From the NCBI RefSeq assembly GCF_002252505.1, contig NZ_NNRL01000167.1:1-64000 (forward strand): DNA of 64,000 nt. The letters run 5' to 3'. The stretch's first letter is position 1. Each line of letters opens with the position of its first letter. A model generated the notes under the pieces. The model did not search any database and was not told the DNA's origin. It saw nothing but the letters and a program-made list of their open reading frames with translations. Shown one piece after another: positions 8,220-12,601 of this stretch. This DNA is from Brucella grignonensis (GTDB lineage: Bacteria; Pseudomonadota; Alphaproteobacteria; Rhizobiales; Rhizobiaceae). A program made the translations under genes and the position numbers.

Positions 8220-8606
8220 TCATCGCGAATTGATGACGGCAGCTGCGAGGTAGATTCTGGCCTTGAAGCTTTGATCGGTTTTGTCGGCGCGCATTGCAAT
8301 GCGTTTAAATTCTTTGAGCTTACCGAAGAAGTTCTCGATGAGATGGCGCCATTTGTAAATTTCGTGGTCGATAGCAAGCGGACGGGATCGGCGCGAATGC
8401 TGCGATATGACGACCTTGGCACCGCGCTGGTCGAGGTCAGTAATGATCTCATTGCTGTCAAAGGCTTTGTCCGCGAGCAAAGCGCCGAATTCCAGGCCAT
8501 TGATGAGAGGTTTGACGCCGACGGTATCGAACCTTTGCCCGGGAAGGAGTTCAAATCGAACGAGATTGCCGAGCGCATCAGTCAGAGCGAGGATTTTGGT
8601 CGTCAT
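8220..8606 (-). CDS. IS5-family transposase, second frame (OrfB)
   Basis: The C-terminal half of a DDE transposase. VRFELLPGQRFD is followed by LLADKAFDSNEI (the second catalytic Asp region) and then YKWRHLIENFFGKLKEFKR, the Y-x2-R-x3-E-x6-K signature of IS4/IS5-type enzymes with the final Glu. It is probably expressed as a fusion to the upstream frame by slippage on the A-and-G run near 8642-8651, as in other IS427-group elements. It ends 14 bp from the inverted repeat. Confidence 0.85.
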   Translation of the reverse strand: MTTKILALTDALGNLVRFELLPGQRFDTVGVKPLINGLEFGALLADKAFDSNEIITDLDQRGAKVVISQHSRRSRPLAIDHEIYKWRHLIENFFGKLKEFKRIAMRADKTDQSFKARIYLAAAVINSR

Positions 8607-8623
8607 GCCACCCTTGGAACGAC

Positions 8624-8971
8624 CTATGGCCTGGCTTTGAGTCCCCCTTTTGAGCCCTGACCGTGACGGTGAACCTTGACGATCGTTGCATCGACCATAG
8701 CATATTCCATATCCGGCGCCTCAGAGGCAGCATCGAACAACAGCTTGAAAATATCCGCCTTCACCCAATCCCGATAGCGTTTGAAGACGGTGTTCCAACT
8801 ACCGAACATCTCAGGCAAATCACGCCAAGGGCTGCCAGTTCGAACAATCCACAGTATTGCCTCGATAAACATCCGATTGTCGCCGCCGCTGCGCCCCGGA
8901 TCGCTCGCCTTGCCAAGGCAGTGGGGTTCCATCTTCGCCCATTGGGCATCGGTTAAAACAAATCTATCCAT
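8624..8971 (-). CDS. IS5-family transposase, first frame (OrfA)
   Basis: About 115 residues beginning MDRFVLTDAQWAKMEPHCLG, the typical N-terminus of IS427-group transposases. It contains FIEAILWIVRTGSPWRDLPE and the first catalytic Asp in YAMVDATIVKVHRHGQG. It ends shortly after a slippery AAAAGGGGG on the coding strand (plus-strand CCCCCTTTT at 8643-8651). A frameshift there would join it to the downstream frame and make full-length transposase. Confidence 0.85.
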   Translation of the reverse strand: MDRFVLTDAQWAKMEPHCLGKASDPGRSGGDNRMFIEAILWIVRTGSPWRDLPEMFGSWNTVFKRYRDWVKADIFKLLFDAASEAPDMEYAMVDATIVKVHRHGQGSKGGLKARP

Positions 8972-9085
8972 CCGTAGTTTGAATCAGAAATTTAATCCGG
9001 AGGAAATCTAAATCTCAACAGACCCTAGACTACGTGTCGCGTAATTCCTAAAACATACGACAAAGGCCGCCGAACCGATTTCTTG

Positions 9086-9114
9086 TTGAAGTCACGCGGC
9101 TTTTGTAGCTACAT
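9086..9114 (+). promoter_or_regulatory. Putative sigma-70 promoter for a leaderless leader peptide
   Basis: TTGAAG (9086-9091) and CTACAT (9109-9114) are separated by 17 bp. A start seven bases after the -10 box would fall on the A of ATG 9122, making the leader-peptide mRNA leaderless, as known for trpL of Sinorhizobium. No Shine-Dalgarno sequence precedes that ATG, which fits. Inferred from sequence only. Confidence 0.5.
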
Positions 9115-9121
9115 TCACCGA

Positions 9122-9178
9122 ATGAACAAGCTATTCAATCATTTTGTGCATATCGCTGGCTGGTGGCTGTTGACCTGA
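9122..9178 (+). CDS. TrpL-like leader peptide with tandem Trp codons
   Basis: An 18-codon reading frame (MNKLFNHFVHIAGWWLLT) with two adjacent tryptophan codons near its end at 9161-9166, followed by TGA at 9176-9178. Immediately downstream lie alternative GC-rich stems and a U-rich terminator (9181-9230), the layout of a ribosome-mediated tryptophan attenuator. The regulated gene is a LysE-type transporter at 9278. There is no ribosome-binding site, and the promoter suggests leaderless translation. The peptide itself probably has no function beyond being translated, although rhizobial TrpL peptides have been reported to act in trans. Confidence 0.65.
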   Translation: MNKLFNHFVHIAGWWLLT

Positions 9179-9180
9179 AA

Positions 9181-9230
9181 GGCGGCTCCAACTGTTATGC
9201 ACTATGGGCCGCCGCATCGGGCGGCTTTTT
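9181..9230 (+). terminator. Attenuator: antiterminator and terminator stems
   Basis: Three mutually exclusive segments are seen: GGCGGC at 9181-9186, GCCGCC at 9208-9213 and GGCGGC at 9220-9225, the last followed by TTTTT. The second and third make a rho-independent terminator with a six-base loop. The first and second make an antiterminator. A ribosome stalled at the Trp codons (9161-9166) would favour the antiterminator. Start-to-start geometry fits classical trp attenuation. Confidence 0.65.
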
Positions 9231-9277
9231 ATTTATCTGGCTTGATTGCGGCGTCCAAATCTTAAACGGAGAACGTT

Positions 9278-9871
9278 ATGGACGGCGCAATTATCCCTTC
9301 TCTCGCCAGTTTTGTATTTGCAGCGACAATCACTCCCGGCCCCAATAATATTATGGTCATGGCGTCAGGTGCGAATTTCGGCCTTCGCCGCTCGATTCCA
9401 CATCTTCTTGGGATTTCCGTTGGAGTCCTGTTGATCATTGTGCTTGCTGGCGTTGGACTTATGGCGATTTTCGACGCTCTCCCCAGCCTCGAAACAGTAT
9501 TGCGCGTCGTCTCGACGGTCTATCTCCTCTGGCTTGCGTGGAAGATTGCAAACGTCCCGCCACCCGATGCTGGCAAAGCGGCTGGCAGACCGCTTTCTTT
9601 TCTGCAAGCCGCAGCATTTCAGTGGGTCAACCCGAAAGTCTGGGCAACCAGCTTATCCGCGATTACCCTTTTTGCACCGGAAAGGGGGGTGGTTTGCGTT
9701 GTGCTGGTGGCTTCGGCCTTTGCACTGATCGGGCTTGCCTCGAATGCTATCTGGGCATGGATGGGCACCGCGCTTCAGCGTTGGTTGATAGTCGGTCGCC
9801 GGCTCCAGTTCTTCAATATCGCCATGGCAATCTTGCTGATCGCATCGCTCTATCCGGTATCGCAACATTGA
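9278..9871 (+). CDS. LysE/RhtB-family amino-acid exporter
   Basis: A 197-residue membrane protein with the LysE-family N-terminus (FVFAATITPGPNNIMVMASG) and about six hydrophobic segments. Residues in FQWVNPKVWATSLS match the conserved second motif of the family. Members export amino acids or related small molecules using the proton-motive force. ATG 9278 follows GGAGAAC. The upstream WW leader and attenuator suggest its expression responds to tryptophanyl-tRNA charging, which points to tryptophan or a metabolite of it as substrate; that is inference. Confidence 0.8.
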   Translation: MDGAIIPSLASFVFAATITPGPNNIMVMASGANFGLRRSIPHLLGISVGVLLIIVLAGVGLMAIFDALPSLETVLRVVSTVYLLWLAWKIANVPPPDAGKAAGRPLSFLQAAAFQWVNPKVWATSLSAITLFAPERGVVCVVLVASAFALIGLASNAIWAWMGTALQRWLIVGRRLQFFNIAMAILLIASLYPVSQH

Positions 9872-10256: not shown

Positions 10257-10697
10257 GTGTCTGGACTTGACCTTACGCCTGACCCGGAGCGACAGCCCCG
10301 GCGTTTCGAGGTGATCAACGGTGCTGGCGGCCGGCGTCACTGGTCGATGGATGACAAGGCGCGGATCGTCGCGGAGACGCTGGAACCGAACGCAATCATT
10401 TCCGAAGTCGCCCGGCGTTACGGTCTCAGGCCACAGCAGGTGTTCGCCTGGCGGCGCGAAGCGCGCAAACAGGCTGCATCGGTACAGCAGGAATCCCCGG
10501 CCTTCGTACCGGCAGTGTTGACGGCAGCGCCTCCGGAACCCACGCCGACGCGTCCAGTGCAGCCGCGGAAGCGGAAGGCGACCCGAGATGCCGGTGTGAT
10601 CGAGCTTGAGATCGACGGCATCGCCATGCGGGTCGGCCGGGGAGCCGACGCCAAAACGGTTGCGGCGGTGATCCGTGCGCTGAAGGCAACGTCGTGA
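10257..10697 (+). CDS. tnpA: IS66 TnpA (helix-turn-helix accessory protein)
   Basis: 146 residues starting at GTG 10257. RRHWSMDDKARIVAETLEP followed by EVARRYGLRPQQVFAWRREA is the IS3/IS66 OrfA helix-turn-helix, which recognises DNA. A Pro-rich linker leads to a short C-terminal region ending AAVIRALKATS. It overlaps tnpB by four bases (GTGA), the usual IS66 arrangement that couples translation. Confidence 0.9.
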   Translation: MSGLDLTPDPERQPRRFEVINGAGGRRHWSMDDKARIVAETLEPNAIISEVARRYGLRPQQVFAWRREARKQAASVQQESPAFVPAVLTAAPPEPTPTRPVQPRKRKATRDAGVIELEIDGIAMRVGRGADAKTVAAVIRALKATS

Positions 10698-11050
10698 TCG
10701 GGCCGACGGGCGCCGTCAAGGTCATGGTGGCAACGAAGCCGGTAGACTTCCGCAAGGGTGCGGAGGGGCTGGCTGCGTTGGTGCGAGAGACAATGGGCGC
10801 CGATCCGTTCAGTGGCGCAGTCTACGTGTTCCGGGCGAAACGAGCGGATCGGATCAAGCTGATATTCTGGGACGGGACCGGCGTCTGCCTCTATGCGAAG
10901 CGGCTGGAGGATGGCGAGTTCCGTTGGCCGAAAGTGCAGGATGGCGTGATGCGGCTGACGGCCGCTCAGTTGTCGGCGCTGCTTGAGGGGCTTGATTGGC
11001 AGCGGGTTCATGAAGCCCGCCGGACGCTCACTCCGGCGCAAGCGGGTTGA
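10694..11050 (+). CDS. tnpB: IS66 TnpB accessory protein
   Basis: 118 residues with the conserved IS66 Orf2 core: TKPVDFRKGAEGLAALVRE, then GAVYVFRAKRADRIKLIFWD and RLEDGEFRWP. TnpB is needed for IS66 transposition, but its biochemical role is not well defined. Length is normal and there are no frameshifts. The gap to tnpC is about 70 bp. Confidence 0.92.
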   Translation: MIGPTGAVKVMVATKPVDFRKGAEGLAALVRETMGADPFSGAVYVFRAKRADRIKLIFWDGTGVCLYAKRLEDGEFRWPKVQDGVMRLTAAQLSALLEGLDWQRVHEARRTLTPAQAG

Positions 11051-11119
11051 TCCGCGACCAAGTGAATCAGCCTGGATTCCGCTGTCGCCCGGAACTGGCG
11101 AATATGGTCTCATCTGATC

Positions 11120-12601
11120 ATGGCGATGACAGCGGACCAGCTTCCCGACGATCCGGATGTGCTGAAGGCGATGGTCCTGGCGCGCGATGTCGAGAATGCT
11201 CGCCTGACCCAGATCATCAAGGAATTGCAGCGTCACCGCTTCGGCCGTCGCGCCGAGAGCCTGCCCGAAGATCAACTGCTCCTTGGCCTTGCGGAGGCCG
11301 AGCAGATCGAGGCGGCAGGCGAGGAAGAGGCCGAACGTGCCGATCGTGCCACGCGCAGGGAGCGCACCACAAAGCGGCGGGCGAACCGGGGTGCACTGCC
11401 GCCGCATCTGCCGCGCATCGAGATGGTCGTCGACATCGAGGACCATGCCTGCCCATGCTGCCGCAACGGACTTCATCGGATCGGCGAAGACGTCAGCGAG
11501 CGGCTCGATATCATGCCGGCGCAGCTGCGCGTGATCGTCGTGCGCCGGCCCAAATATGCGTGTCGTGCCTGCGAGGACGTGGTCGTGCAGGCTCCAGCGC
11601 CTGCCCGTCTGATCGAAGGCGGTCTGCCGACCGAGACGACGGTCGCGCAGGTTCTGGTCTCCAAATATGCCGACCACCTGCCGCTGTATCGCCAGGCGCA
11701 GATCTACGCCCGGCAGGGCATCAACCTCGACCGCTCCACGCTCGCCGACTGGGTCGGTCGCGCCGCCTGGCATCTGCGTCCGGTCCACGAACGGCTGTTG
11801 GAGAAGCTGAAAGCCTCGCCGAAGCTCTTTGCAGACGAGACTACGGCGCTTGTGCTCGATCCCGGCCGCGGCAAGACCAAGACCGGGCAACTTTGGGCTT
11901 ACGCTCGTGATGACCGGCCATGGGACGGGAGCGATCCGCCGGGCGTCGCCTATGTCTATGCGACGGACCGCAAGGCCGAGCGACCGATCGTTCATCTCGC
12001 GGGCTTTGCCGGCATCCTGCAGGTCGACGGCTATGGCGGCTATCGGGTGCTCGCCGAGAAGAGCGGCGCAACGCTTGCCTTCTGCTGGGCACACGTACGT
12101 CGGCGCTTTTACGAACTCGCGGCAGCCGGCCCAGCACCGATCGCCAGCGAGGCGCTCCGGCGCATCGCAGAACTCTATCACGTCGAGGACGACATCCGCG
12201 GCCAGCCGGCAGACGCACGTCGTGCCGTGCGCCGGGAAAGGAGCCGGCCGATCCTGGCCGAGCTCGCCGAGGCAATCCGCTATACGCTGTCACGCTGGGA
12301 GGGGCTCACCCGCGTCCTCGACGACGGACGCATCGAGATCGACTCCAATACCGTCGAGCGGTCAATCCGCCCAATCGCGCTCAACCGGAAGAACGCCCTC
12401 TTTGCGGGTTCTGACGGCGGCACCGAGCACTGGGCCGTCATCGCTTCGCTGATCGAGACGTGCAAGCTGAATGACGTCGAGCCGCTCGGCTACTTGGCCG
12501 ACGTGCTCGCCAGGATCGTCAACGGCCATCCAAACAGTCAAATCGACGATCTCCTGCCCTGGGCCCACGTCGCCGCTCACGAGCTTAAGGCCGTGGCCTG
12601 A
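11120..12601 (+). CDS. tnpC: IS66 transposase TnpC
   Basis: 493 residues. An N-terminal coiled-coil/leucine-zipper region contains [16 protein letters not shown] zinc-finger-like segment with CPCCRNGL and a later CRAC follows. The DDE catalytic domain starts near residue 230 with [20 protein letters not shown] (first Asp). It then shows [12 protein letters not shown] (second Asp), [13 protein letters not shown], and [19 protein letters not shown] (Glu). All expected parts are present, so the transposase looks functional. Confidence 0.93.

Follow-up and report, generated by a model that had tools for sequence, protein, structure and literature searches.

Evidence for a tryptophan-codon attenuator in front of a LysE-type exporter gene in Brucella grignonensis and three distant relatives

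Introduction

Why should the gene of a putative amino acid exporter be preceded by a leader that looks designed to sense the charging of tryptophanyl-tRNA? The question is raised by a locus of Brucella grignonensis situated in a window of 64,000 nucleotides (the whole stretch of DNA that was analysed), where an earlier note had pointed to a short reading frame with tandem tryptophan codons, several competing stems and a T-run upstream of lysE, and had proposed that a trp-type attenuator controls an exporter rather than a biosynthetic gene. In enteric bacteria the trpL leader of trpE carries two adjacent Trp codons near its stop codon and four RNA segments, so that stalling for want of tryptophan results in pairing of segments 2 and 3 (2:3), while a ribosome that reaches the stop codon permits pairing of segments 3 and 4 (3:4).

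A general account of trp attenuation is given in PMC7298713, and for Sinorhizobium meliloti both attenuation of trpE(G) and a leaderless trpL have been published (PMC7298713, PMC10117765). Beyond biosynthesis, a Trp attenuator was predicted before trpS2 of Streptomyces avermitilis, a tryptophanyl-tRNA synthetase gene (PMC1262725), and the drug pumps BmrCD and mef/mel are described as being under leader-peptide attenuation (PMC4191407, PMC4335068). Among the open-licence papers listed by our literature searches we found none that describes Trp attenuation upstream of a gene of the LysE type, and the main text of PMC2965389 has no mention of LysE.

Results

The lysE gene (9278–9871, plus strand) encodes a protein of 197 amino acids, which belongs to the LysE family according to its match with Pfam PF01810 (51.9 bits, cut-off 25.6). 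It shares this family with the LysE/RhtB exporters EamB (YfiK), RhtB and LeuE, yet in contrast to them stays below the cut-off of each listed NCBIfam model. The best of these models was that of a cysteine/O-acetylserine transporter with 90.2 bits, so that the 193 bits required of an EamB cysteine/O-acetylserine exporter equivalog were not reached. Upstream of the gene, on the same strand, lies the leader ORF MNKLFNHFVHIAGWWLLT (9122–9178), probably leaderless, which starts with the ATG at 9122, has 18 codons with TGG TGG at positions 9161–9166 and ends with a stop codon at 9176–9178. All these elements, as well as the stems and the T-run considered below, are present in the sequence just as first noted. 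Promoter-like boxes of the alphaproteobacterial type were recognized by eye, namely GTTGAA (9085–9090, plus strand) and, after a spacer of 18 nt, CTACAT (9109–9114), which is separated by 7 nt from the ATG. They would place the start of transcription on or beside the leader ATG, and similar boxes, also found by eye, end 7, 7 and 9 nt upstream of an ATG in the three relatives introduced below. A strict sigma-70 scan of the window gave no promoter match before the leader. The promoter is thus the weakest element of the arrangement, with boxes recognized by eye at all four loci and no match in the strict scan of the window, and leaderless initiation of the lysE leader, as suggested earlier, may be regarded as plausible on the basis of weak promoter matches.

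Downstream of the Trp codons several alternative pairings can be drawn, all on the plus strand. In the minimum-energy fold obtained without a ribosome, 9161–9171 would pair with 9181–9190 (stem 1:2, including several G-U pairs), and no-ribosome folds of the relatives also hold a hairpin upstream of 3:4. Folds and pair counts indicate an antiterminator formed by segment 2, GGCGGCUCC (9181–9189), and segment 3, GGGCCGCC (9206–9213), while the same segment 3 can pair with segment 4 (9219–9225; stem 9206–9213 with 9220–9227) in an intrinsic terminator (feature 9206–9234) with a T-run from position 9226. In the lysE leaders the antiterminator and the terminator with its T-run are mutually exclusive. 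The fold energy of the region 9122–9236 is ordinary (z = −1.15, with 26 of 200 shuffles folding equally well); what counts as evidence is how the elements are arranged and that this arrangement recurs.

The arrangement was assessed with a detector requiring TGGTGG in a short ORF with an in-frame stop within 9 codons, a GC-rich hairpin of 6 bp with a loop of 3–10 nt, a T-run and an exact 6-nt alternative pairing upstream. It fires on the window and on none of 5000 dinucleotide shuffles of 9086–9277; 5000 shuffles of the Ensifer counterpart gave no hit either. Over 160 loci (1.56 Mb, both strands) it returned only four lysE leaders, each of them twice via duplicate loci. Three rhizobial trpE leaders contained in the same set (L120, L159 and L160) were missed, which means that the detector, with its loop of at most 10 nt and exact 6-nt pairing, is tuned to leaders of the lysE type.

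Recurrence was followed among relatives of the exporter. A protein-relative scan of 84,980 species genomes matched at least 591 stretches, at least 494 of which encode a relative, and the best 80 were used. Together with 37 other loci (the own copy, seven own paralogues and 29 family relatives), Sinorhizobium sp. B11 (L119) and L150 they made up a set of 119 loci, of which 118 (all except L008) were placed by tblastn, with the gene on the minus strand in 23 cases, and 350 nt upstream were read on the gene strand. An ORF of 6–40 residues with WW or WxW was found upstream of 11 of the 118 lysE-type loci, and the attenuator in four of those placed, the window's own included, leaving 114 without it. 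The three other attenuator-bearing exporters share 77% (Ensifer adhaerens ST2), 68% (Neorhizobium alkalisoli) and 59% (an alphaproteobacterial MAG) protein identity with that of the window. The Ensifer leader, MTKLFDHFTHIAGWWLPS, has the same frame as the window leader without any indel, and by hand count 9 codons are changed, 4 of them synonymously. In the leader peptides of N. alkalisoli, MNTISKTMLGWWPLL, and of MAG Co_bin.252, MTHLVIAYVKVWWPVS (or a longer form, MASMTHLV..., opened by an ATG three codons upstream), WW is retained and little else.

Common to the four loci is the succession of WW, exactly three codons, a stop codon, 1–2 nt and GGCGGC, followed by similar 2:3 and 3:4 stems. 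In all of them the first Trp codon lies 15 nt upstream of the stop, the gap of 1–2 nt separates the stop from segment 2, and the Trp codons are conserved (WW is kept at L038, L039 and L043). The search of relatives for lysE genes with a WW leader, which the earlier note had advised, has thus yielded three more, in Ensifer, Neorhizobium and the MAG, and its proposal of a trp-type attenuator before the exporter gains strength from the identity of WW codons, spacing and stems in these distant relatives, even if the independent examples number only four.

The functional meaning of this geometry was modelled with a ribosome that masks the RNA as far as 13 nt beyond the first A-site base. With the Trp codons placed as they are, segment 2 stays free while a ribosome is stalled on them and is covered when the ribosome stands at the stop codon. 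At all four loci the probability of 3:4 was 0.94–1.00 for ribosome-free RNA and 1.00 when the stop codon was occupied; 2:3 had a probability of 0.98–1.00 when either of the two Trp codons was occupied and segment 4 had yet to be made. When segment 4 was present and the ribosome stood at Trp, 3:4 was more stable in the three relatives, the probability of 2:3 being 0.01–0.26. In the window under the same conditions 2:3 reached 0.95 at the first Trp codon, and at the second one 2:3 and 3:4 were nearly equal (0.46 versus 0.55). Since equilibrium with segment 4 present favours 3:4 in the relatives, the switch must be kinetic. That expression should be on when charged Trp-tRNA is low, as had been expected for a leader of this type, follows from the folds.

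Across the four sequences all cells of 2:3 (32 of 32) are paired, with one C-G pair changed to A-U on both sides, and the terminator helix is invariant (7 pairs, one with a gap in one sequence). Covariation, named earlier as a check, is slight and the numbers are small, with one pair in 2:3 and two in the Shine-Dalgarno hairpin described below: shuffled controls equal the observed value in 145 of 500 cases for 2:3 and in 31 of 500 for the Shine-Dalgarno hairpin and the terminator taken together.

Another hairpin follows the terminator (9236–9239 with 9267–9270 and 9242–9245 with 9262–9265, feature 9236–9271, plus strand; pairs drawn by eye). Its 3′ arm covers part of the Shine-Dalgarno sequence GGAG of lysE (9268–9271). 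In the window it was assigned by eye and from pair counts, the fold-script pattern having missed this copy. Over the four sequences 94.4% of its cells are paired and two pairs are changed on both sides. The hairpin is strong in the three relatives and weak in the window: when the longer transcript is folded, the Shine-Dalgarno region is unpaired to 2, 11 and 15% in the former and to 62% in the latter. The hairpin probably keeps translation of lysE low. In three of the four sequences its loop could pair with a stretch of segment 3, with two compensated pairs, a value equalled by 126 of 500 shuffles.

The genomic surroundings of the four genes have little in common. In the window lysE is flanked by an IS4/5-type transposase (8220–8971) and an IS66 element (10257–12601); IS elements and an RmlD-like gene are its neighbours. 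In Ensifer the neighbour is a short-chain dehydrogenase, in Neorhizobium a LeuA-like synthase, and in the MAG RraA- and PrpF-like genes. Thus lysE and its leader form a solitary cassette, the examined neighbours being unrelated among the four loci. An ORF of 100 amino acids, which matches no Pfam family, comes after lysE in the window and ends just before the IS66 side. Signals of plasmid replication, the Rfam families ctRNA_p42d and S-element, also occur in the window, both of them outside the lysE leader. The best plasmid match of its region 30000–54000 was with Ochrobactrum quorumnocens, 39% being covered at 86.9%. At 866–1741 of the window, within a part that carries plasmid replication signals, a leucine-rich-repeat protein adjoining a resolvase was noticed.

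In a tree of 32 rows, four leader-bearing exporters, four accompanied by TetR genes and that of Pseudomonas iridis (L042, with 235 nt of contig left upstream of lysE) make up a group of nine rows with a support of 93/78, below the starred level. Among the leader-less members of this clade a divergent TetR gene lies by lysE in Acuticoccus mangrovi and Pseudomonas sp. Q11, and a TetR gene is found downstream of lysE in Rhizobiales AFS010580 and Sinorhizobium sp. B11. All four of these TetR genes match Pfam TetR_N. On this tree a single label change may suffice to account for the leader (support 66/57, 69% of bootstrap trees), but the long row of the MAG is of unsure placement. By eye, a common palindrome-like site CTACC..CTAGTAGG is visible upstream of lysE in L040, L041 and L042, which is a likely TetR operator. 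Palindromes were also seen by eye upstream of more distant lysE genes of the family (L191–L193 and L197–L204), TTGTCACC.TGACAAG and AGGTCA..TGACCT, and suggest a DNA-binding regulator. The lysE paralogue at L031 (48%) is preceded by a W-rich ORF, MTMMQWHGWFWTVMLT, which was discarded, as it is not kept among the regions upstream of 20 lysE relatives from the family; in the three of these that are genus mates of L031, its place is taken by shared palindromic DNA sites, TGTCACCATGACA and GGTCA..TGACC (by eye).

Distribution of the leader was estimated with RNA model R1 at E-value limits of 1e-3 for the family, 1e-4 for the order and 1e-7 for each of the genera of Ensifer and Neorhizobium, using genome samples that overlap in part and cover large groups in part. 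In the family 27 of 394 genomes were matched, the own one strongly (96.2 bits) and 26 weakly (27.7–36 bits). The only short WW ORF around the 26 weak places, at L127, lies on the strand opposite to the hairpin, has no segment 2 and was rejected by eye. The order search matched 5 of 397 genomes, the own one and four weakly, and W-bearing ORFs near L151–L153 were without WW. In the genera of Ensifer ST2 (1 of 16 genomes) and N. alkalisoli (1 of 57) the model returned the copies already known. A protein search of the class at E 1e-63 gave the own genome and L150 (2 of 385), and at L150 there was no WW ORF upstream of the lysE-type gene. A loose pattern of WW, stop and GCGGC occurred in 245 of 385 class genomes, mostly by chance judging by the places listed; a short ORF was given by 2 of 30 fetched loci, neither with a terminator of the lysE-leader kind. 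Thus, occurrence of the lysE leader is sporadic across the sampled genomes. On a plasmid of Ensifer sp. PDNC004 (L118, 3013–3363) the C-terminal part of the exporter alone was noticed (residues 80–197, 70% identity), and the leader model had no match there.

Discussion

The sequence with its spacing, the conservation among relatives and the mutually exclusive folds make it quite probable that a ribosome-mediated trp-type transcription attenuator controls a one-gene exporter cassette; where transcription starts, that the ribosome stalls, that termination occurs in the cell and what the switch is for are inferred. Transcription would begin at or beside the leader ATG. If the leader were left untranslated, 1:2 would form and then the 3:4 terminator. 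With charged Trp-tRNA the ribosome would reach the stop codon and hide segment 2, allowing 3:4 to end transcription, and with uncharged Trp-tRNA it would stall on WW, so that 2:3 might form ahead of the synthesis of segment 4 and lysE be transcribed.

Such a leader resembles enteric trpL-trpE in having WW near the stop, segments 1–4 and the same stall logic, and differs from it in serving an exporter instead of a biosynthetic gene, in the Shine-Dalgarno hairpin and in the probably leaderless start. With trpL-trpE(G) of S. meliloti it has the mechanism and the bacterial family in common, and plausibly the leaderless ORF, but it carries WW followed by three varied codons and precedes a different gene. 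Like the element predicted before trpS2 of S. avermitilis, it places a Trp attenuator at a gene without a biosynthetic role, although trpS2 is a synthetase gene in actinobacteria and the window gene encodes an exporter. As in BmrCD and mef/mel, an efflux pump would be switched on via a translated leader; those pumps respond to antibiotics, whereas the conserved codons of the lysE leader are Trp. Conservation on a pump of a device that is textbook knowledge for tryptophan synthesis would mean that a biosynthetic logic gate can be reused for export, and from the type of regulator one could then predict which class of substrates the pump handles.

Plain export of tryptophan is an unlikely role for the pump, because the switch is on when Trp-tRNA is uncharged and such export would worsen starvation. 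The purpose we favour, tentatively, is efflux of a Trp antimetabolite or of a tryptophanyl-tRNA synthetase inhibitor that lowers charging of Trp-tRNA. The actinobacterial synthetase TrpRS1 is itself under Trp-codon attenuation. It is resistant to indolmycin (PMC9437257). Indolmycin is named by the authors of the work on AexB, an aromatic exporter of Bacillus subtilis, as a substrate worth testing (PMC13170310). According to the same source, overexpression of AexB impaired growth at limiting tryptophan and raised resistance to 5-fluorotryptophan. Starvation logic together with the AexB data, therefore, favours a pump for a compound that blocks the use of tryptophan. The solitary cassette, its unrelated neighbours, its sporadic occurrence and TetR beside lysE in all four leader-less members tested also speak for a resistance purpose, the whole being an argument from logic and context. 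One can imagine, with similar reserve, a resistance cassette under its own control that responds to what the toxin does, the lowering of Trp-tRNA charging, and not to the toxin itself, its sensor having been exchanged within the clade between TetR and a Trp attenuator. If the antimetabolite reading is true, leader codons could help to guess the roles of uncharacterized exporters.

A doubtful though serious competitor is metabolic overflow, in which the pump would move a normal metabolite accumulating at Trp shortage, be it cysteine, O-acetylserine, another amino acid or an intermediate of the Trp pathway, and no toxin is needed. It agrees with the cysteine/O-acetylserine transporter being the best NCBIfam model, though below cut-off, while the sporadic single-gene distribution and TetR beside the clade relatives fit accessory efflux better than housekeeping.

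The earlier note had also considered capture of the leader from a trpE locus, in which case control of the exporter would be an accident without benefit. Separate trpE leaders with WWW exist in the own genome (MNISRIDTKIWWWAR), in Ensifer ST2 (MENARNISIWWWAR) and in Neorhizobium (MTISMNNGNWWWVRFARP), so that in these three genomes the lysE leader is an additional Trp attenuator; at the trpE locus of the MAG (L158) no WW ORF of 8–35 residues was seen. The own trpE leader has the same architecture and a like end, GGGCGGCCTTTTT, which speaks for capture. At the same time the ends of the lysE leader peptides (WWLLT, WWLPS, WWPLL and WWPVS) differ from those of the trpE leaders (WWWAR, WWWAR and WWWVRFARP), and by peptide and gene the lysE leader falls outside the trpE(G) leader family of Rhizobiaceae. 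Searched with the lysE leader model, the trpE leader of the own genome comes out near noise (14.5 bits, E 0.12, beside a chance match at 0.15), and WW and spacing are kept before lysE copies of only 59–77% identity. Capture thus found no clear support and appears improbable, while lysE and trpE leaders may have an ancient common origin.

Action mainly in trans, with the attenuated RNA or the peptide serving as an sRNA or small protein in the manner of rnTrpL and peTrpL, is documented in S. meliloti for the leader of trpE (PMC7298713); for the lysE leader it is very improbable, given a peptide poorly conserved outside WW and a conserved part that consists of cis spacing and stems. That the hairpin is merely a terminator and the WW ORF a product of chance, as the ordinary single-sequence fold energy might suggest, is scarcely credible in view of the silent shuffles and of the same spacing recurring in three relatives.

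An attenuator-like leader of another association was noticed in a genome of the family (L126, about 1440–1600), where MINERAPISCSYFWAFL is followed by GGGCGGC, GCCGCC, GGCGGC and a T-rich end and precedes a gene other than lysE.
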